A stretch of DNA of 36,794 nucleotides, from positions 1-36,794 of the forward strand of contig JAFZWV010000028.1 in assembly GCA_017617035.1 (NCBI GenBank). The letters are read 5' to 3'. Positions 3,647 to 31,684 of the stretch are shown in pieces. Origin of the DNA: Bacteroidales bacterium. Lineage in GTDB: Bacteria; Bacteroidota; Bacteroidia; Bacteroidales; UBA932. The translations under genes were made by a program, and so were the position numbers. Numbering within the stretch: the first letter of the stretch is position 1; each line of letters opens with the position of its first letter. The notes under the pieces are model-generated. The model had not been told where the DNA came from. It saw only the letters and a list, made by a program, of their open reading frames with translations, and did not search any database.

Positions 3647-3652
3647 TTGATT

Positions 3653-6600
3653 ATGAAAAAGTTACTACCGATTGTCTGTATACTTATGGCGTTGTTTTCA
3701 CCAAAGGCCAAGGCCGATTCCGATGGCCACGTCCTGGACGCGCTCTGGAAGCAGTACCAGGCCGCATATAATTCAGATCAGCCTCAGAAGGAGCAGGAGA
3801 TTCTGACTAAGATAAAGGAAGAGGCAGGCAAACAGCGCCTGGCCTGGGACTACTACGACGCCGTTACTCGTTATGAAGATGTTGGCGTACGCATCAATTG
3901 GAAGATGCGCGAGTCGTTGCATGAGGCTACGAAAGAAGCTATAGCTGAGTTTAACGAACCGGTCGTAACATATTATTACAGCCTTAGGAATGCAATTCTT
4001 CCCGAGAATTTTCTGGGTTCTAATGAGGATAGACTGAAGTCTACCAATAACCCGGAATTCCATAAGCGCGACTGGGCTGTGAAGAACAGATCATACTCCA
4101 AAACACTTCTGGAGAACTTCCAAAATGACTATGACTATGTAGTCTGGAGTCTGTACATGAACTCCACGGATAAAACAGCGCAGACAGCGTTTAAAGGACG
4201 TTATCCGCTTGAGCAGCTGGTCGAATTCGAGGATATAGAGTCGGACTATACTTACTGGCGGACAAAATATGAAGACAGAGCCGCGGCGCTCGATGCCTTT
4301 ACCGAAAAATACAAAGACAAGGCGGTCTCTCTGCTTTCACGGCAGGCAAGGCTGAACGACATCTTCAGAAAACACGGAGAGGATAATGCTGAAGGGAAGA
4401 AATATGAGGAACTGAAAGCTTTGTGTGAGGCCTTCGAAAAAGACCGCAAGGCTTCGCCGGAAAAGACTCTGGCGGAGTCGTGCACCGAAGTGAAAGATCT
4501 ACTGAATACTCTGAATAGCAAACACATTGGCTTTGAACTGAAAGACAGCCAGCTTAAGGTCTTCGTCCGTAACCTTGCCAGTGTTGATCTGGAGATAAAG
4601 ACGGATAAAAAGACTGTCCATAAAGCCAGTCTCACCAATCCCAAATGCAGCTTCTACGCCCAGGATACCATTTCGTACAAGATACCCGCGATTGACGACG
4701 GCGAGTACACTGTCATCTGTAAGAATGGAGACGAAAAACAGGAATCGAGATGGGAGTTGTATACGATATCGGTCGTAACAAAGTACGACGCCGACGGATG
4801 GTGGGCCTACGCGGCTGATTATCAGAGCGGAGAGCCCGTTAAAGGCTACGAAAAGGGCTTCCAGAAGATATCCGCCAAGGATAAATTCAGCGTCAGCATC
4901 AATGAGAATGGCCGCACTCGCCGCTCGCGCGAAGTAAAGCTCCGCGAATCAAGCATTGGGCCTTATAGTATTGACAAACGGCTCGAGGCTATACTGCTTA
5001 CCGACCGTGCGGCTTTTAATCCTGAGGAGACTGTTCAGTACAAGGTCATTCTTTTCCGCATGGACTACAGCCTTGAGGCCGTTGGCGCCGGGCAAAAAGT
5101 TAAGGTTCGCATGAACGACGCTAAGGGTGAAAAGGTGGCGGAAGAAGATCTGACCACCAATGAATTCGGCTCGGTTGCCGGCAGTTTCTTCATTCCTCGC
5201 GGCGAGCGCAATGGCTCTTATACGATTGAGGTTGAGGTTGACGGCAGGGTAGTGGAGTCTCGTGCGATAACCGTCGACGATTTTGTCCTTCCGACTTTTG
5301 CCGTCTCCTTCGACAGGCACGATCCGGTTCAGGCGGGAGAGAATGTCGTGTTCTCCGGAACTCTCAAGGCTTACAGTGGCCATTCCATCGCAGGCGCAGA
5401 TGTCTCTTACCGTATATCCAAGTGGGGAGATGTTGTCTCCGAAGGAAAGCTGGAACTCAACGCCGGAGGACGTTTTAAGGTCGGATGTGCGACAGAACCT
5501 ACGGGCTATCAGTCTTATGTGCTGACTATCAAGGTGGTCGATGGTACGGGCGAGACTAAGGAATTCAATACCAGCGCATATGTGAGGTATACTGAGCCTG
5601 AAACTGAAAAGCAGAAGGAGTACTTTTTCGAGAATCTCGGAGACGATAATCATATCGGCATCCGCGCCGTCGCTGGCGACCAGCCGGTCTGGGCGCTGGT
5701 CGATTTCTATGGACTTGACTCGCGGCTTATCGAGACGCGCTTCGTGCGCTTCAATCCTAAGGGAGGGGCCAAGGCGGAGAAGTCTTTCACTTACGAGTAC
5801 CTTAAAGAGTACCCCGACGCACTGACCCTGAGCGTATTCTACTTCCAGAACGCCAGACAATACAGCTATACCACGACCTTGAGGCGGAAAGATACGCGCT
5901 ACGATCTGCCGCTGGAATTCACGCGTTTCCTCGACACAACCGCCCCGGGCCAGTCTTATGAATTCCTCATCAATACGGCTCCGGGAGTGGAATGTGCGGC
6001 GACCATCTTCGACAAAAGCAGCGAGACGGTCAGGGCCAACGGCATTTCGATTGTCCGCCCTTACCAATATCCGGTTTACGGCCCGCGCTACAACTCAATG
6101 GTAGGATCGGATCGCGCAAGCGCATGGTTTGATCGCGGACGCGTATACTATATGAAGTCGGCCACGACGTCCATGGTAATGCTCGATGCAGCTGTCGACG
6201 ACATGGCTGAAAACGAGGCCATGGTCGAGGATGCGGTCGCGATGGGCTTTGCTGCCCCGCAGGAGGAAGAGTCGGAAACTGAAATCGCAATTCGCGAAGA
6301 CATGTCTACCACCATCGCATGGGAGCCGTTCCTGCGCTCGGATGAAAATGGCAACATAAGTTTCAAGTTTACCAATGCCGACAAGCTGTCGACATTCTAC
6401 GTCCAACTCTTCGCCCACGACAAGGCAATGCGCAACGCGACACTGCGTAAAGAAATGGTTGTCACTCTGCCGGTAAAGGTGTCCGTTCTCGAAGCGCGTT
6501 ACCTCTATCCGGAAGACCGCTGGCGTGTTCGCGTCTCACTGTCCAGCAGCGTGGATCACGAGATAAATGGCACACTGACTGTCAACGGCAATAAGATATC

Positions 6601-8302
6601 CGCGGCTATTCCTGCGTTTGAACAGGTCTGGGCGGAGGTGCCTGTGTTCTTCGATGAAGATGACAAGGAACTGATTTTGACTGCGGTTTTTCAGCCAGAG
6701 AATGACATTCATTCTGTCATTCCGAGCGAAGCGAAGGAATCTGTAGCCGGCGACGCAGTCCGTGTTCGAATTCCTATCAAGGAATCCTGGCAGACCATTA
6801 CCGAGGCCCATTCGGAAGTTCTCCTTGCCGGTGACGATAAAGATGCGCTCATCGCCGATCTGCGCAGCCGCTTTGTAAATTTGGACGGCAGCGAGGCGAC
6901 CCTCAAAGAAATCTCCATCAAGCAGATGCTGGAGGAAGCCCTGCCGGAGCACTTCAATATCGATTCAGAGAATTGCATCACTCTGATGCGCGCCCTCTAC
7001 GCAGCCACTCTGGCAAAGAGTCTTGGCTCGCAGGGCCTGACGAATGACGAACTCCAAGACGTCGTGAAGCGATTGCTTGATTGCCGCAACTCCGACGGCG
7101 GATTCGGCTGGTTCAAGGAATTCGACTCCTCGCCGATCATAACCGCTACGATACTCGACTACTGCGCCGGCATTCGCACGAGAGGTCTCGGGCTCCCCGC
7201 CGCGCTGGCGGATGTCCTCCCTGCTGCGGTAAGTTTCCTCGACGCGAAGTATTTCTCCAAAGACCCCTTCCCGTTTTGGCGCGGCGGGATCTCCATGGAA
7301 CAGTATATATATATAAGGTGTCTGTATCCCGAGGTTAAGTTTGCCCAGAAGACCGACGCGAAGTGGCGCAAAGAGGCGCGTAAGTACCTGGTCCCGACCA
7401 AGGACCGTGGCCTGCAGTACTCTGTGTTCGCTAAGGCTCGCCGCATGAAGACCCTCCAGGCCCTGCTCGAATCCGATGGCGGCCTCGAGCTGGCCCGCAG
7501 ACTCGGCATCAGCCTCGGGGTGAAGTGCCGCCTCCGCAAATCGCTCGAGGCCGACACCCGCTCGCTGGTCCAGTACGCGGTAAAGCACCGCACGGGCGCC
7601 ACCTACTATCCTAACGCCGTGATGCCATGGCGCGGACTGCTCGAAAGCGAGCTTTATGCCCATAGTCTCATCTGCGACCTGCTCGCCTCGCGCGGGGAGA
7701 CCGAAATCGCGGAAGGCATACGCCTGTGGCTCATGCTCCAGAAGGAGACCCAGCAGTGGGGCGCCGACCCTGGAACCGTCAACGCGCTAGCCAGCGTGCG
7801 CGACGCCAGCCCCGAGACTCTCGAGACCATGGTCATAGCCCTGTCGGGCACAACCCGACTCCCGTTCGCGCAGATCAAGGCGGCCGGCAACGGTTTCACG
7901 ATCGAGCGCGGCTGGTACAAACTGGCCGACGACGGGACTCGCAGCGCGCTGAGTGAGGGCGACACGCTCACCGTGGGCGACAAGGTCATCGCAGTTTGCC
8001 CGATATGGAACGAAGAGAACCGCAGCTTTATCCATATTTCCATCCCTCGCCCGGCATGTTTGACCCCGAAGAACCAGTTGTCGTCATTCTACGGCTGGAA
8101 TGCATGGCGTAGTGTGGGTATAGACCGGACGGAGTACTGGTTCGAGTCGTATCCCGAGGAGAAAACCACCATCGAGGAGGTCTTCTATGTGACTCAAAGC
8201 GGACTATTCCACGCGGGCGTTCCCGAAATAGAATCGCTTTATGCGCCGCATTACAGGGCAAATGGTGAATCCGGCATAGAAATCGCGACAAAATCGCGCT
8301 AA
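3653..8302 (+). CDS. Alpha-2-macroglobulin family protein
   Basis: The protein has 1549 aa with a signal peptide (about 1-22, ending PKAKA). The in-frame TTG at 3647 was rejected in favour of ATG 3653. An MG2-like segment begins near residue 440 (LLTDRAAFNPEETVQYKVILFR) and is followed by further macroglobulin beta domains (VDDFVLPTFAVSF, about 540). The conserved A2M segment (WEPFLRSDENGNISFKFT) lies near residue 885. From about 1095 there is an alpha-toroid, thioester-domain-like region (CRNSDGGFGWFKEF, near 1143). I find no GCxEQ thioester motif, so it should not trap proteases covalently. Bacterial A2Ms are periplasmic proteins thought to bind proteases or repair-related partners. A palindromic repeat lies in frame at 6699-6742. 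GC content rises from the 5' to the 3' half. Confidence 0.88.
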   Translation: MKKLLPIVCILMALFSPKAKADSDGHVLDALWKQYQAAYNSDQPQKEQEILTKIKEEAGKQRLAWDYYDAVTRYEDVGVRINWKMRESLHEATKEAIAEFNEPVVTYYYSLRNAILPENFLGSNEDRLKSTNNPEFHKRDWAVKNRSYSKTLLENFQNDYDYVVWSLYMNSTDKTAQTAFKGRYPLEQLVEFEDIESDYTYWRTKYEDRAAALDAFTEKYKDKAVSLLSRQARLNDIFRKHGEDNAEGKKYEELKALCEAFEKDRKASPEKTLAESCTEVKDLLNTLNSKHIGFELKDSQLKVFVRNLASVDLEIKTDKKTVHKASLTNPKCSFYAQDTISYKIPAIDDGEYTVICKNGDEKQESRWELYTISVVTKYDADGWWAYAADYQSGEPVKGYEKGFQKISAKDKFSVSINENGRTRRSREVKLRESSIGPYSIDKRLEAILLTDRAAFNPEETVQYKVILFRMDYSLEAVGAGQKVKVRMNDAKGEKVAEEDLTTNEFGSVAGSFFIPRGERNGSYTIEVEVDGRVVESRAITVDDFVLPTFAVSFDRHDPVQAGENVVFSGTLKAYSGHSIAGADVSYRISKWGDVVSEGKLELNAGGRFKVGCATEPTGYQSYVLTIKVVDGTGETKEFNTSAYVRYTEPETEKQKEYFFENLGDDNHIGIRAVAGDQPVWALVDFYGLDSRLIETRFVRFNPKGGAKAEKSFTYEYLKEYPDALTLSVFYFQNARQYSYTTTLRRKDTRYDLPLEFTRFLDTTAPGQSYEFLINTAPGVECAATIFDKSSETVRANGISIVRPYQYPVYGPRYNSMVGSDRASAWFDRGRVYYMKSATTSMVMLDAAVDDMAENEAMVEDAVAMGFAAPQEEESETEIAIREDMSTTIAWEPFLRSDENGNISFKFTNADKLSTFYVQLFAHDKAMRNATLRKEMVVTLPVKVSVLEARYLYPEDRWRVRVSLSSSVDHEINGTLTVNGNKISAAIPAFEQVWAEVPVFFDEDDKELILTAVFQPENDIHSVIPSEAKESVAGDAVRVRIPIKESWQTITEAHSEVLLAGDDKDALIADLRSRFVNLDGSEATLKEISIKQMLEEALPEHFNIDSENCITLMRALYAATLAKSLGSQGLTNDELQDVVKRLLDCRNSDGGFGWFKEFDSSPIITATILDYCAGIRTRGLGLPAALADVLPAAVSFLDAKYFSKDPFPFWRGGISMEQYIYIRCLYPEVKFAQKTDAKWRKEARKYLVPTKDRGLQYSVFAKARRMKTLQALLESDGGLELARRLGISLGVKCRLRKSLEADTRSLVQYAVKHRTGATYYPNAVMPWRGLLESELYAHSLICDLLASRGETEIAEGIRLWLMLQKETQQWGADPGTVNALASVRDASPETLETMVIALSGTTRLPFAQIKAAGNGFTIERGWYKLADDGTRSALSEGDTLTVGDKVIAVCPIWNEENRSFIHISIPRPACLTPKNQLSSFYGWNAWRSVGIDRTEYWFESYPEEKTTIEEVFYVTQSGLFHAGVPEIESLYAPHYRANGESGIEIATKSR
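6699..6742. repeat. In-frame palindromic repeat inside the A2M gene
   Basis: The unit at 6715-6742 starts TGTCATTCCGAG and ends AAGGAATCT, with pairing arms ATTCC/GGAAT. It is identical to the units at 24246-24273, 25109-25136 and 25937-25964. It is preceded by the end of an opposed unit (AGAATGACA, 6699-6707) and a 7-nt spacer, the same back-to-back layout as at 24 and 25 kb. It is read in frame as SVIPSEAKES (about residues 1021-1030) between two beta domains. Confidence 0.85.
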
Positions 8303-8385: not shown

Positions 8386-9699
<1,314 letters not shown>

Positions 9700-22273: not shown

Positions 22274-23584
22274 TTACAACTTCCCTTGTTTGAGCTGCTC
22301 CACGTATCTATCGATGCGGTGGAGTTCTTCAGGGATGTTTATTTGCTGGGGACAGGCTTCGAGGCAGGTCCCGCATCCGATACAATGGTCGGCCTGGCGT
22401 AGAGTCGGGACGGCTTTATTGTATTCAAGCAGGTACTGCTTGCGAGCCTTAGCATAGTTTTTCTGCTCTGTGCTCACGACGAATGTTCCTTCGCGAACAT
22501 TGTCGTTGTAGAATTTGAATACACCCGGAATATCGATACCATAAGGGCAAGGCATGCAGTACTTGCAGTCGGTACATGGAACCAAGGGATACTCATTCAT
22601 CTTTACCGCCACCTCCTCGAGAAGTTTGAAATCTTCTTCACCCAGAGGTTCGAAATCCAGATAAGTTTCAAGATTGTCCTTGAGGTGCTCCATGTAGGTC
22701 ATGCCACTGAGCACACACAGAACCTTAGGGAAACTGCCGACAAAGCGGAAGGCCCAGGAGGCGATTGATTTCTCGGGCTCGGCGGCCTTGAGCAGGTCGG
22801 CCAGCGGAGCTGGCACAGAAGCAAGCCTGCCGCCGAGCAGGGGCTCCATGATAACGACGGGGATATCCATTTCCGCGAGCCTTTCGTACATGTAGTCGGC
22901 ATTGACATCGCGGGTGGCGTGCTTCCAGTCGTTGTAGTTCATCTGGATCTGGACGAAGTCCCAGTGGTATTTGTCGTGGAGGGCAAGCATTTCATCGAAG
23001 CCTTCCTTCGGGCCGTGGAAGGAGAATCCAAGCTGGCGTATCCGGCCTGCCTGACGCTCTTTTTCAAAAAAATCGACCAACCCAGTGTCTTCGAAACGCT
23101 CCTTGAACTCGTCGTATCCGCTCAGCGAATGGAGAAGGTAGTAATCTATATAATCAGTCTCGAAATTCTCCAGCGACTTCAGGTACAGGTCGCGCCCCTG
23201 CTCAAAAGAATACGGTCCCCTGAAGTTGGAACACTTTGTCGCGACGATATAGCTCTCGCGCGGATAGCGCAGAAGCGCCAGGGCGGTTGCGCGTTCGGAC
23301 TTGCCGCGAAGGTAGACCGGGGCGGTGTCGTAGTAGTTGACGCCATGGGCCATGGCGTAGTCTATCATCTCATCGACCGCTTCCTGGTCGATCTCGCCGT
23401 CTTTCATGGGCCAGCGCATGGCTCCGAAGCCCAGCAGGCTGATGCCGGGGTAGTTCTGGGCCATGTGGTCGGGGCCGAGCGCCTGCTTGTGCAGGGCAGG
23501 CTCGGGGCTTCGGGGTGCGCAGCCCGCCAGACCGGCAGAAGCCGCAGCGAGGCCCGAAATCTTAAGGAAGTCTCTTCTATCCAT
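22274..23584 (-). CDS. Aldo/keto reductase with 4Fe-4S C-terminus and Tat signal
   Basis: The protein has 436 aa. The N-terminus has a twin-arginine motif (DRRDFLKIS) and then a lipobox-like LAGC, so it is probably a Tat-exported lipoprotein. The aldo/keto reductase barrel shows the catalytic set Asp/Tyr in NYYDTAPVY, Lys in IVATKCSN and His in YYLLHSLS. The C-terminal part carries two ferredoxin-like clusters (CTDCKYCMPCPYGIDIP and CIGCGTCLEACPQQINIP), typical of iron-sulfur AKRs of anaerobes. It overlaps the upstream ferredoxin gene by 8 nt and should be its redox partner, although the substrate is unknown. Confidence 0.92.
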   Translation of the reverse strand: MDRRDFLKISGLAAASAGLAGCAPRSPEPALHKQALGPDHMAQNYPGISLLGFGAMRWPMKDGEIDQEAVDEMIDYAMAHGVNYYDTAPVYLRGKSERATALALLRYPRESYIVATKCSNFRGPYSFEQGRDLYLKSLENFETDYIDYYLLHSLSGYDEFKERFEDTGLVDFFEKERQAGRIRQLGFSFHGPKEGFDEMLALHDKYHWDFVQIQMNYNDWKHATRDVNADYMYERLAEMDIPVVIMEPLLGGRLASVPAPLADLLKAAEPEKSIASWAFRFVGSFPKVLCVLSGMTYMEHLKDNLETYLDFEPLGEEDFKLLEEVAVKMNEYPLVPCTDCKYCMPCPYGIDIPGVFKFYNDNVREGTFVVSTEQKNYAKARKQYLLEYNKAVPTLRQADHCIGCGTCLEACPQQINIPEELHRIDRYVEQLKQGKL

Positions 23585-25049
23585 TGTGTCTGACGTGTTG
23601 GGAGCGGCCGTTGACCCTGACCGCGCTTATCGGGCGCACGGGGCAGAGGTTCTCACACGCTCCGCATCCTATGCAAATCTCTTCGTTTACGACCGGTATT
23701 TCGTGGCCATGGCGACCCTTCACCATCCTGATGGCGCCGACGGGGCAATGGCGGACGCAATTGCCGCAGCTGATGCCTTCGTGTTGGAGGCAGTCATGGT
23801 GGTAGACATGGGCTACGCCCCAGCTGACGGTGAGCTTTTCGAACTTCTCGAGCGGCTCGATAGCGCCGGCGGGGCACACGGTCGAGCAGGTATTGCATTC
23901 CGGGCGGCAGTAGCCGTCGGCATAGCTCATGTGCGGCTGAAGCAAATGGCCAAGGTCAGTTGAAGTCTTAAGCACGCCGTTCGGGCAGTTCGACACGCAT
24001 AGCTGGCAGCCGGTACAGCGCTCGTAGAAGCGCTTCACGCTCTCGGCTCCGGGAGGCACCAGCGGTGTCTCTCGCTCCGGGTCCTGCTTCGGAGCGATCG
24101 CCGCCAATCCACCGTGGAGCTGAGCCTTTGCCTCAAGCGAGCCGAGAGCCACTCCTCCCGCCAGCATTGTCGCTTGCGCGATGAAATCGCGTCTTTCGAC
24201 GGCAGATCCCTTCGTCGCTGACGTTTCTCGGGATGACATTGGTGTTGTCATTCCGAGCGAAGCGAAGGAATCTTTCCACGCGAAGCGCAGTTTCACCCCA
24301 CCTTCCTGACAGAGGCCTATGCAGTCGAAGCAGTCCACGCAGCGCGAATGGTCTATGACTTTCCCGCCGTCGATGTCGATGCAGGAGGCCTTGCAGCCGC
24401 GCTCGCAGCTCTTGCAGGCGATACACTTGTCCTTATCGATCTCGATGCGGAACATCGAGATGCGGCTGACCAGGCCGAGAACGGTGCCGACAGGGCAGAT
24501 GTTGGAGCACCATGCGCGTCCGTAGATCCAGCTAAGGATAATAATGCCCACGAAAGTCACTCCGGCTACCACTATGAGCGGCCATGCAGTTACTTTCCCC
24601 AGCGCGAGCGCCACCATCCTGCCGTAGGCGCTGTAGGGTGCCACCAGCAAGACGACGCCCTGGATGCCTGCGGCAATGCAAATGATAATGAGCGCGAGCA
24701 CTCCGTAGCGTACCCACTTTCGCTCCTTATTGTAAGTGAAACGCTTGATAAAAGGTTTGCGACCTTTCAGCGCGAGGCGTTTGCGGGTGAGTTTACCGAG
24801 GGTGTGGCGCAGCCAGATGACTATGTCCTGGAATACGCCCAGCGGGCAGACGGTCGAGCAGTAGATTCGGCCGAAGAGCAGTGTCACGGCGAGTACGCCG
24901 GCAATCACCGCGAAGTTCAGACCCAGCACTGCTGGGAGAAACTGGAGTTTTGCCATCCAGCCCCACCAGTCCGTTCCAATTCCGGTGAACAGCAGCGTAA
25001 TGCCGATCAGGAACACCGCCGCCAGAATAATTCTTATTTTCCTTAGCAT
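23577..25049 (-). CDS. Membrane-bound polyferredoxin (NapH-like plus ferredoxin fusion)
   Basis: The protein has 490 aa; ATG 25049 was chosen over an in-frame ATG 15 nt upstream because of the promoter box at 25054-25061. The N-terminal half is NapH/CcoG-like with four membrane segments (about 6-23, 35-58, 100-125, 135-160) and cysteine motifs YCSTVCPLG and WCSNICPVG, then two 4Fe-4S clusters (CIACKSCERGC, CVDCFDC). A linker holds a palindromic repeat in frame (24204-24273). Then comes a Tat-like hydrophobic segment (VERRDFIAQATMLAGGVALG) and a C-terminal half with four more cysteine groups (CTGCQLCVSNC, CNTCSTVC, CGNCVRHC, CIGCGACENLC). It probably moves electrons across the inner membrane. 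This fused architecture is known in Bacteroidales. Confidence 0.9.
   Translation of the reverse strand: MLRKIRIILAAVFLIGITLLFTGIGTDWWGWMAKLQFLPAVLGLNFAVIAGVLAVTLLFGRIYCSTVCPLGVFQDIVIWLRHTLGKLTRKRLALKGRKPFIKRFTYNKERKWVRYGVLALIIICIAAGIQGVVLLVAPYSAYGRMVALALGKVTAWPLIVVAGVTFVGIIILSWIYGRAWCSNICPVGTVLGLVSRISMFRIEIDKDKCIACKSCERGCKASCIDIDGGKVIDHSRCVDCFDCIGLCQEGGVKLRFAWKDSFASLGMTTPMSSRETSATKGSAVERRDFIAQATMLAGGVALGSLEAKAQLHGGLAAIAPKQDPERETPLVPPGAESVKRFYERCTGCQLCVSNCPNGVLKTSTDLGHLLQPHMSYADGYCRPECNTCSTVCPAGAIEPLEKFEKLTVSWGVAHVYHHDCLQHEGISCGNCVRHCPVGAIRMVKGRHGHEIPVVNEEICIGCGACENLCPVRPISAVRVNGRSQHVRHNG
24204..24273. repeat. Pair of back-to-back palindromic repeats inside a CDS
   Basis: The left unit (24204-24238) runs AGATCCC ... 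GGGATGACA with pairing arms ATCCC/GGGAT, and the right unit (24246-24273) runs TGTCATTCC ... GGAATCT with arms ATTCC/GGAAT; a 7-nt spacer separates them. Both lie in frame in the polyferredoxin gene, read as DSFASLGMTT and PMSSRETSATKG (about residues 259-282), in the linker before the Tat-like segment. The right unit is identical in sequence to 6715-6742. Confidence 0.88.
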
Positions 25050-25053
25050 GTAA

Positions 25054-25061
25054 CAAATATA
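25054..25061 (-). promoter_or_regulatory. -7 box of the polyferredoxin promoter
   Basis: The minus strand reads TATATTTG followed by only 4 nt before ATG 25049. A clear -33 TTTG is missing; the region is occupied by a repeat unit. The transcript would be nearly leaderless. Confidence 0.55.
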
Positions 25062-25067
25062 CACAAA

Positions 25068-25175
25068 AGATTCTTTCGTCGCTAACGCTCCTCAGAATGA
25101 CATAGTGTTGTCATTCCGAGCGAAGCGAAGGAATCTATTTGTCATTTCGACCGAGCGTAGCGAGTGGAGAAATCT
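25068..25175. repeat. Cluster of three palindromic repeat variants
   Basis: Three units of one family stand in a row in the gap between two divergent genes. Unit 1 (25068-25102, reversed) has arms ATTCT/AGAAT. Unit 2 (25109-25136) has arms ATTCC/GGAAT. Unit 3 (25140-25175) has arms ATTTC/GAAAT. All share the TGTCATT start, a GAGCG..AGCGA core and an AATCT end. Units 1 and 2 are back to back with a 6-nt spacer. Confidence 0.9.
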
Positions 25176-25837: not shown

Positions 25838-25964
25838 ATTTCTCCACTCGCTTGCTTCACCCCACCAATTTGCAATTGGCGGGGGCCCCGATCGCTCGGT
25901 CGAAATGACACTTTTTGTCATTCCGAGCGACCCTTCTGTCATTCCGAGCGAAGCGAAGGAATCT
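25836..25964. repeat. Composite palindromic repeat with nested loop insertion
   Basis: The first unit (25836-25910, reversed) has arms AGATTTC/GAAATGACA like the unit at 25140-25175, but its loop carries about 40 extra bases that form their own hairpin (CCACCAATT/AATTGGCGG with one mismatch, 25862-25881). A broken unit (25916-25936) that stops after the GAGCGA core follows, and then a full unit (25937-25964) with arms ATTCC/GGAAT. This fills the gap before the phosphatase gene. Confidence 0.85.
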
Positions 25965-29266: not shown

Positions 29267-29293
29267 ATGAAGCAATACAAAGACGAAATCAGA

Positions 29294-31684
29294 ATGAACG
29301 TAATCAACAAGAAGATCGAACTCGCGGACGGCCGCGTGATCGAGATCGAGACCGGCAAGCTGGCCAAGCAGGCCGCCGGTTCAGCTGTCGTGAAGATGGG
29401 TGGCACTATGCTTCTCGCCACCGTGACAGCCGCTACGGAAGTGAAGGAAGGCACCGACTTTATGCCCCTCACCGTAGACTACAAGGAAAAGTATTATTCA
29501 GCAGGACGCTTCCCCGGAGGATTCATGAAGAGGGAAGGCAAGTCGAGCGACTATGAGATTCTCATCAGCCGTCTTATCGACCGCCCCATCAGGCCCCTCT
29601 GGCCGGATGATTTCCACCTGGAAGTGTTCGTCAACGTAACCCTTATCTCGGCTGAGAAAGATATCCAGCCGGATGCTCTCGCAGGTCTTGCTGCATCTTG
29701 CGCCCTCGCAACCAGCGACCTCCCGTTCGGAGGCCCTATCGGCGAGGTTCGCGTCTGCCGCATCGACGGCCAGTTCGTCATCAACCCTACCTTTACCGAT
29801 ATGGAAAGGGCTGACCTCGAACTCATGGTCGCAGCTACCGAAGAAAACATCATGATGGTCGAAGGCGAAATGAAGGAAGTCTCCGAGCACGACATGCTCG
29901 AGGCCATCAAGTTCGCCCACGAAGAGATCAAGAAGCACTGCCGCGTACAGAAAGAGCTCATGCACGAGCTTGGTACCGACGTAAATAAGCGCGATTATCC
30001 CCACGACGAGCAGGACGAAGAGCTCCGCGCCGCCGTCAAGGATTTCTGCTATCCCAAGTGCTACGCTCTCGCAAAGGCAGCAAAGCCCAAGCACGAGCGC
30101 GAGGACGGCTTCAAGGCCATCCTCGACGAGTTCATCGCCACTATCCCCGAGCCCGCAAACCTCGAGGAGAAGCCGGCTTATGACCTGAAGGTCGTTCTCG
30201 CAAGCCGCTACTACCACGACGTGGAGAAAGAGGCCATGCGCAACATGATCCTCGACGAAGGTCTCCGCCTCGATGGCCGTAAGACCGACGAGGTCCGCCC
30301 GATCTGGTGCGAGGTCGACTATCTGCCTTGCGCCCATGGTTCCGCAATCTTCACCCGCGGTGAGACCCAGTCCCTCGCGACCGTGACCCTCGGAACCAAG
30401 ATGGACATGAAGGAGATGGACGAGGTCCTCATCCAGGACGACCAGCAGTTCGTGCTCCACTACAACTTCCCTCCGTTTGCCACCGGTGAGGCTAAGCCTC
30501 AGAGGGGTGTCGGCCGCCGTGAGATCGGCCATGGCAACCTTGCGATGCGCGCTCTCAAGCCCGTTATCCCCATGGCCCCGGAGAACCCGTACGCCGTTCG
30601 CGTCGTGTCCGATATCCTTGAGTCCAACGGCTCCTCGTCAATGGCTTCGGTCTGCGGCGGCTGCCTCGCACTCATGGACGCCGGCGTGAAGATCAAGAAG
30701 ATGGTAGCAGGTGTGGCCATGGGCCTTATCACCGACGCTGAGCGCCCCAACGAGCGCTACGCCATCCTCACCGACATCCTCGGCGACGAAGACCACCTCG
30801 GCGACATGGACTTCAAGGTCACAGGTACCGCCGACGGTATCACCGCAACCCAGATGGATATCAAGGTCGACGGCCTTTCCTACGCAGTCCTCGAGCAGGC
30901 TCTCGAGCAGGCGCGCCAGGGCCGCCTCCACATCATGGGCGAGATGAAGAAGACCATCAGCGAGCCTCGCGAAGACTACAAGCCGTTCGTGCCTCGCATC
31001 CAGCAGCTCATCGTCGCTTCCGAGTTTATCGGAGCCATCATCGGCAAGGGCGGCGAGACCATCCAGAAGATTCAGAAGGAAACCGGTGCAACCATCAATA
31101 TCGACGAAGAACCCAACCCGAACGGAGAGGGAACAGTCGGTGTGGTCGACATCGCTTCCAACGACGCAGTGGCCATGCAGAAGGCTCTCGATTGGATCAA
31201 GGGCATCTGCGCAGTTCCCGAGGTGGGTACTGTTTACCATGGTCGCGTGGTGTCTATCCTCGACTTCGGCGCATTCATCGAGATACTCCCTGGTAAGGAA
31301 GGACTCCTGCACGTCAGCGAGATCGCATGGACGAAGACCGAGAAGGTTGAGGATGTCCTGAAGGTCGGCGACGAGGTTGATGTCAAGCTCCTCGAGATCG
31401 ATGCCAAGACCGGAAAGATGCGCCTTTCGATGCGCGCTCTTACCGAGAAGCCCGAGGGATACGTTGAGCCCAAACCGCGTGAGCGCGGCCCCAGGCGCGA
31501 CGGCGACCGTAAGGGCGGAGAGCGCTCAGATCGCGGTCCTCGCCGCGAGGGCGATCGCCGCGGAGGCGAGCGTCGTGACGACCGCCACGACCGCGGTCCC
31601 CGCCGCAGCTTCGGCCCGCGCCACGAAGAAGCCCCGGCCCCTCAGGCCGACGACTTCCGCGAACCCGCCGACGAAGTCTTTTAG
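29294..31684 (+). CDS. pnp: Polyribonucleotide nucleotidyltransferase (PNPase)
   Basis: The protein has 796 aa. It degrades RNA 3' to 5' with phosphate. Two RNase PH-like domains (about 1-210 and 320-550; [61 protein letters not shown]) flank the helical domain. A KH domain (about 570-630: [17 protein letters not shown]) and an S1 domain (about 640-715: [19 protein letters not shown]) follow. The last 70 residues are a low-complexity Arg/Gly/Asp tail with repeated RGPRR (about 726-796), beyond the usual PNPase end. ATG 29294 ([13 protein letters not shown]) matches the family N-terminus better than ATG 29267, which would add 9 residues. It probably shares transcription with rpsO. Confidence 0.96.

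Follow-up and report, generated by a model that had tools for sequence, protein, structure and literature searches.

The locus analysed here raises the question whether a 28-nt palindromic repeat (unit A) inside an alpha-2-macroglobulin (a2M) gene is a mobile element read as part of the protein, and how such an element could be tolerated in coding DNA. The gene lies in a 36,794-nt stretch of DNA from a Bacteroidales bacterium, all of which is referred to as the window (Table 1). The genome to which it belongs comprises 1,640,911 bases and is 80% complete. Compared genomes, aligned loci and contigs of the own genome are designated by G, L and C, respectively.

According to the original prediction, the unit lies in frame within the coding region, and the open reading frame and its Pfam matches bear this out. 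The unit contributes the codons GTC ATT CCG AGC GAA GCG AAG GAA TCT, which specify VIPSEAKES as residues 1024–1032, just before the conserved DAV/DGV...IPV segment of a2M. A sequence search of the PDB with the a2M protein gave no match at E ≤ 0.01.

Matches to a2M at E ≤ 1e-100 were obtained in 301 of 400 genus genomes, the own included, and loci were retrieved for the best 30 of these 301, again with the own among them. All 29 best-scoring orthologs lacked the insert (27 by MAFFT alignment, two by tblastn), with 9 residues between a conserved F and D where the own protein has 20. The insert is therefore specific to the lineage and adds a net 33 nt, or 11 codons, rather than the ten or so residues initially proposed. 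The loop was of variable length in distant orthologs (in L057 it was longer and of different sequence), and VIPSEAKES was absent from those shown. The relatives nearest by a2M were G286, G399 and G357 (66% identity), followed by G035 and G395 (56%). These five genomes contained no match to unit A at two mismatches, and their a2M proteins lacked the extra residues as well; the same residues were thus not found in repeat-free genomes. Some of the 29 orthologs came from genomes carrying unit A elsewhere (13 copies in G068, seven in G191). By sequence comparison, the a2M copy is a newer insertion, apparently gained after the split from the nearest sequenced relatives.

The exact nucleotide borders of the 39-nt block that replaces ortholog sequence at this site (Table 1) lie beyond resolution at the given ortholog divergence, and the flanks of the a2M insert, CATTC and GTAGC, are not duplicates of each other. 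An opposed partner unit was also proposed to have stood here, with AGAATGACA as its remnant. Most of these 9 nt overlap ancestral codons: GAG AAT aligns with codons for P-D-N in L108 and P-Q-D in L105, so that a former opposed unit is suggested chiefly by GACA and the frequent spacing of 7 nt. The arrangement TGACA-7 nt-TGTCA is present at the a2M copy, which is counted among the 13 intragenic dimer-like copies described below. A former opposed partner at the a2M site is plausible.

Table 1. Features of the window related to unit A and its host genes.
Feature	Position	Strand	Basis or remark
a2M gene, bacterial alpha-2-macroglobulin	3647..8302	+	ORF of 1551 codons from TTG; Pfam MG2, bMG10
ATGACA, possible end of opposed partner unit	6702..6707	.	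Spacing table; partly ancestral codons, so uncertain
39-nt block GAC...TCT replacing about 6 nt of orthologs	6704..6742	+	Ortholog alignment
Unit A, TGTCATTCCGAGCGAAGCGAAGGAATCT	6715..6742	+	28 nt, codes VIPSEAKES in a2M
Polyferredoxin gene, second intragenic insert in the window	23577..25064	-	Pfam Fer4 families; G399 ortholog without unit
Unit C, AGATCCCTTCGTCGCTGACGTTTCTCGGGATGACA, opposed partner in polyferredoxin head-to-head dimer	24204..24238	-	Sequence, dimer spacing
Unit A in polyferredoxin gene	24246..24273	+	Minus-strand reading DSFASLGMT
Unit C variant, opposed partner, intergenic dimer	25068..25102	-	Sequence
Unit A, intergenic	25109..25136	+	Identical copy
Unit B (TGTCATTTCGACC...GAGAAATCT), another TGTC-tagged palindrome	25140..25175	+	Sequence
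Cut-down unit head with 9-nt spacer, 21-nt tandem step before full unit	25916..25936	+	Sequence
Unit A, without supported gene around	25937..25964	+	Identical copy, Pfam scan

Copies identical to that in a2M start at 24246, 25109 and 25937. Their identity agrees with the earlier description of intergenic copies about 18 kb away; their placement agrees in part, as no supported gene surrounds those at 25109 and 25937 but that at 24246 lies in frame in a polyferredoxin gene. The polyferredoxin of G399 lacks the unit and is 14 residues shorter at this point. In a by-eye comparison, no counterpart of the intergenic dimer at 25068–25136 was seen at the matching place in G399.

An Rfam scan of the window at gathering scores returned 5S rRNA only, located at 1–92 and cut by the window start. 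The enolase encoded at 8389–9699 is 100% identical in protein sequence to that of G286 and 99.8% identical to that of G399; the two genes upstream of it are about 66–83% identical, and some downstream far less. The polynucleotide phosphorylase (29267–31684) is 97.7% identical to that of G399 over residues 1–733, and the match stops about 70 residues short of the stop codon.

Genome-wide, unit A was found in 54 copies within three mismatches (32 exact), while a reversed control pattern gave none, which argues that the unit is not a chance sequence. All 54 copies were examined in 232 kb of sequence. Units were spanned by 67 ORFs with 130 codons or more, 50 of which were scanned against Pfam, including a2M and some antisense alternatives. 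As a result, 33 of the 54 copies proved to lie in frame within 30 genes with a Pfam match, so that the in-frame copies expected in other coding sequences are numerous. Another four (C2:65695, C12:67548, C18:40839 and C33:8209) are spanned by long ORFs that gave no Pfam match; of these, C2:65695 is conserved in G286 and G399. For the remaining 17, no host gene is supported. These counts exclude seven looser units, found in DnaX and an M16 peptidase among other places.

The supported host genes encode an ABC exporter (unit inside the ATPase), FtsK, UvrC (two units, the second at the C-terminus), a U32 peptidase, an OMP (two), SpoU, CitX, CitG, MatE, RNase R, PrmC, MurE, a2M, polyferredoxin, DUF4855 and DUF4296 proteins, an S41 protease (unit near the C-terminus), TldD, a nucleotidyl transferase, an amidohydrolase, DNA Pol I, BatD/TPR, an FAD oxidoreductase, a Ser/Thr kinase (two), a sigma-54 regulator, RibF, GH2, an amino-acid kinase, DUF1963 and FHA. 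In some of them the unit falls inside the domain match itself (ABC_tran, RNB, Mur_ligase_C, CitG and the PrmC methyltransferase).

Two larger arrangements were also observed. Tandem cut-down heads, each consisting of about 12 nt of the unit and a locus-specific spacer of about 9 nt, with a period of mostly 21 nt, precede the full unit at window positions 25916–25964 and at C8:6275, C8:48636, C18:4281, C19:45226, C23:88596, C25:9825, C33:2795 and C33:17488; they possibly arose by slippage at the hairpin. A composite of the end of partner C, the palindrome GAGGGGGCCCCTC and unit A recurs at the unrelated positions C1:33786, C2:39363 and C10:7745, two of the three within genes (FtsK and SpoU), which suggests that composites move as one.

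Five of the six frames through unit A are open, and their use was strongly skewed. Among the 33 supported copies, 26 read as VIPSEAKES, five as DSFASLGMT and two as HSERSEGI; the readings SFRAKRRN and RFLRFARND did not occur. The bias towards VIPSEAKES, a frame chosen after the fact, had a binomial probability of 6e-13 against 1/5. Three of the four ORFs without a Pfam match would read as VIPSEAKES or a variant, and one (C12:67548) would use the SFRAKRRN frame.

Spacing followed the reading frame as well. TGACA was present 1–7 nt upstream of 21 of the 54 copies, degenerate partners being left out. In supported genes, the spacer n of the dimers TGACA-n-TGTCA was 7 (ten cases), 1 (two) or 4 (one); it was 7, 7 and 4 in unsupported ORFs and 6, 6, 1, 5 and 7 outside genes. 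Spacers equal to 1 modulo 3 accounted for 13 of 13 intragenic dimers versus two of five outside (Fisher's test, p = 0.012), and tandem steps before the unit were multiples of 3 in all seven intragenic cases versus three of eight others. A fixed preference for a spacer of 7 or a step of 21 could be the source of part of this pattern. Purifying selection on translated insertions is the simplest reading of the frame and spacing data. A model with a frame filter only was considered separately: by hand arithmetic, with an assumed 88% of coding sequence, about two-thirds of survivors would lie in genes, which fits the intragenic share but fails on the frame bias.

Variation among the copies was concentrated at one position, with 16 of the 28 substitutions among the 54 copies falling on N of GCGNAGC, where all four bases occur. 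DNA mini-hairpins with a GNA loop and at least two G-C pairs are described as extraordinarily stable, GCGAAGC melting at 78 °C (PMC4686876). The predicted fold of unit A has 5 bp, an internal loop, 2 bp and a 3-nt loop. A lone unit folded no better than shuffles (z = 0.03 as DNA, −0.53 as RNA); the one dimer folded (z = −4.6) and a sister-family unit (z = −3.56) were both better than shuffles. Since the fold energy of the lone unit is unremarkable, the hairpin argument stands on the substitution pattern, and this pattern at position 14 could represent amplified subfamilies instead of structure.

In related genomes, another repeat was found at places of unit A in RNase R (G286), UvrC (G395) and the ABC gene, where it was truncated in G286 and G399 and divergent in G395. 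The UvrC gene of G286 also has an insert of unassigned type. A single in-frame TGA was observed within the ABC match in four of five near-relative genomes. The sister unit M (GTCATGCCCGACTCCGATCGGGCATCT; predicted fold of 8 bp with a 6-nt loop) is read VMPDSDRAS and occupies 12 sites in G286, six in G399, two each in G395 and G035 and none in G357; the own genome has one divergent copy. M loci were compared with own DNA around unit A, a choice by which misses would mostly show as uncalled, and 16 of the 22 sister loci were aligned. For G286, 8 of the 12 sites had unit A in the own ortholog (RNase R, FHA, TldD, RibF, MatE, C2:65695, amino-acid kinase and FtsK), or 9 of 12 with the looser unit in DnaX; of the others, one corresponded to an M-like relic in the own genome and two were uncalled. 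Five of the six G399 sites (MurE, nucleotidyl transferase, MatE, RibF and C2:65695; one uncalled) and one of the two in G395 (nucleotidyl transferase) were likewise shared. Neither G035 site was, one of them lying in a homolog of the sigma-54 gene, where unit A falls outside the matched part. Unit A was within about 110 nt of the sister M site in shared orthologs. At any one site, a unit A would lie within 150 nt by chance with a probability of about 1%; under this null, which ignores that some loops are more tolerant of inserts, 8 of 12 has a probability of 4e-14.

Because relatives without unit A carry units of another family at the same sites, inherited intragenic sites may have changed REP family. 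We hold it tentatively, at slightly under even confidence, that inherited safe-harbour sites were taken over in place by an invading family through the shared TGTCAT/ATCT ends, usually with orientation and frame retained. Orientation and frame agreed at 10 of 11 distinct shared sites, including TldD on the rarer minus strand, the exception being the orientation in DnaX. Of 14 alignments with unit A, 8 had coinciding right borders (offset 0), which corresponds to 7 of 10 distinct sites; in two others the borders were 3–9 columns apart. Right borders also coincided across four species in the ABC gene. This agreement may be inflated by the alignment of similar GTCAT/ATCT unit ends. Conserved codons follow immediately at the RNase R, MatE, amino-acid kinase, nucleotidyl transferase and ABC sites, which makes these the clearest.

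It is credible, if somewhat doubtful, that tolerant loops instead act as independent hot spots which repeatedly receive new repeats, giving shared sites without any family exchange. The RNase R loop was length-variable across 86 aligned sequences, and the arrangement differed in RibF (two sisters), TldD and FtsK, where the units were 33–109 alignment columns apart, as did the orientation in DnaX. Also in line with hot spots, the PrmC, a2M and ferredoxin sites had no unit in the sisters compared, and the UvrC and RNase R sites no clear unit in G399. The coinciding right borders and the agreement in orientation and frame, the minus-strand TldD site included, speak against independent insertion.

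With respect to replacement in place, decayed M/N units seem to have been kept in the ABC genes of G286 and G399, and PDQPAGE, found in the RNase R proteins of G399 and G395, is perhaps another. This suggests an older M/N layer that was replaced by A/B/C units in the own lineage. The exchange could be enzymatic, a gene conversion or repeated hot-spot insertion. If exchange does take place, the intragenic repeat complement would be renewed in concert, with the proteins staying in frame. Nested insertion of a new unit inside an old one was not favoured: only two M/N-like remnants (≤6 mismatches) were present in the 232 kb, none within 150 nt of unit A.

Selection for the peptides as useful hydrophilic linkers or tags is improbable. 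The strong VIPSEAKES bias and the occupation of several sites by REPs in more than one species fit this idea, but the 30 host proteins are unrelated, relatives lack inserts at several sites, and the bias would also be explained by purging of Arg-rich or hydrophobic readings. In a further reading, the unit is removed from the RNA like an intron or bypassed by the ribosome, which would leave the protein unchanged and accommodate palindromes inside conserved domains, that of the ABC ATPase among them. This is very improbable, as selection on frame and spacing argues against it and the retained frame and avoided stops of the 33 supported cases would be unneeded.

The unit is not confined to one species. 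At two mismatches or fewer, unit A was present in 68 of the 400 genus genomes searched, the own included, and ten other genus genomes held 20–57 copies each. In a sample of 29 copies from three other species (G195, G214 and G121), for which 20 ORFs were scanned, nine lay in Pfam-matched genes: PBP1C, DUF3575, MFS, GH127, the tail of ribosomal protein S2, MutL, nucleotidyl transferase, GH92/GDSL and Fmt. Units at the extreme ends of Pfam-matched ORFs (L252, L260 and L262) were left out of the nine. In-frame copies were observed in nucleotidyl transferase, GH127 (with EAKESS repeats) and MutL in L262 (G214), L255 and L257 (G195). Repair and replication genes recur as hosts, with MutL elsewhere and UvrC and Pol I here; such genes are also described as recurring hosts of other REPs by Di Nocera et al. 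(PMC3733652). Relatives by RNase R included three Candidatus Cryptobacteroides (56–64% identity), and the best was Bacteroidales bacterium isolate Tb.RUG.374 (89%), identical to G286 in the loop and length compared; the genus may be Cryptobacteroides.

Taken as a whole, the locus is probably explained by a REP-like, TGTC-tagged repeat that spread through the genome, with its in-gene copies filtered by frame and read as peptide. This explanation builds on direct observations, namely the repeat, its frame, its absence from orthologs, its abundance in other genes and the frame bias. The palindrome would spread as single units and head-to-head dimers, most likely through the action in trans of a RAYT-like enzyme of the HuH/Y1 type on its single-stranded hairpin. 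Selection would then filter insertions for frame and a tolerable peptide, so that an in-gene copy survives only when its net length leaves the host gene in frame and the frame of the unit is open. Translation of the unit by the ribosome would yield a short peptide, mostly VIPSEAKES, in apparent loops or linkers; we infer that the inserts are translated, nearly neutral and located in loops. Old REP sites may serve as landing places where the unit replaces older families. Pfam Y1_Tnp had six matches in the genome, four over the cut-off. A search extending 2.5 kb from each of these six revealed no unit head, the nearest known unit (C26:21790) being about 3 kb from one of them, so that no candidate for a dedicated enzyme emerged.

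One 28-nt family thus occupies at least 30 protein genes, replication and repair enzymes among them, and sister species with a different family occupy many of the same sites. Within the genus, with at least 400 genomes, empty, old-family and new-family sites form a natural series on which REP movement and the tolerance of proteins to REPs could be tested directly. Gene callers and metaproteomic databases would also encounter the insert peptides.

Rickettsia and a few REP-rich genomes account for most of the known in-frame mobile repeats. Literature searches with the unit core GAGCGAAGCGAA gave no match on repeats by title, and no report of the present case appeared among the matches listed for Bacteroidetes REPs, RPEs, GCGAAGC hairpins, Cryptobacteroides palindromes and REPIN/RAYT systems. 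In the mostly Bacteroidetes REPIN/RAYT subclass 2.6, flanking structures without a GT[AG]G foot are described (PMC6006769). The likeness to REPIN/RAYT systems consists in inverted REP pairs and Y1 HuH-type ORFs in the own genome; unit A differs in having no GTAG tag or foot and no copy near a Y1 gene. The RPEs of Rickettsia are reported as in-frame inserts of 105–146 bp in conserved proteins (PMC2229807). Set against this description, unit A is alike in its in-frame insertion into conserved protein genes but is 28 nt long (net 33 nt in a2M) and belongs to another phylum.

The closest resemblance is to the CGTC/TGTC-tagged REP superfamily, in which Rickettsia RPE-4 and RPE-6 were placed (Di Nocera et al. 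2013, PMC3733652). As described there, these REPs have a terminal CGTC or TGTC tag, a stem of 8–9 bp starting with A-T and T-A, a loop of 4–5 nt and a short unpaired tail, mostly CCA; head-to-head dimers predominate, no transposase is associated, some copies are intragenic, and different REPs occupy about the same recB site in two Xanthomonas species. Unit A shares the TGTC tag, followed by an ATTCC...GGAAT stem opening with AT, as well as head-to-head heterodimers, intragenic copies and the lack of an adjacent transposase of the Y1_Tnp type, the type covered here. It differs in its stem, predicted at 5 bp and enclosing a GNA mini-hairpin, and in its tail, which is mostly ATCT without CCA. Given these differences in stem, loop and tail, unit A works like a CGTC-tagged REP rather than being one. 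Most of its copies are intragenic, and families share sites at 10 aligned sites as well as in DnaX and the ABC gene. The kind of element is already known from Rickettsia RPEs and intragenic REPs; the extent of its spread and the sharing of sites look new.
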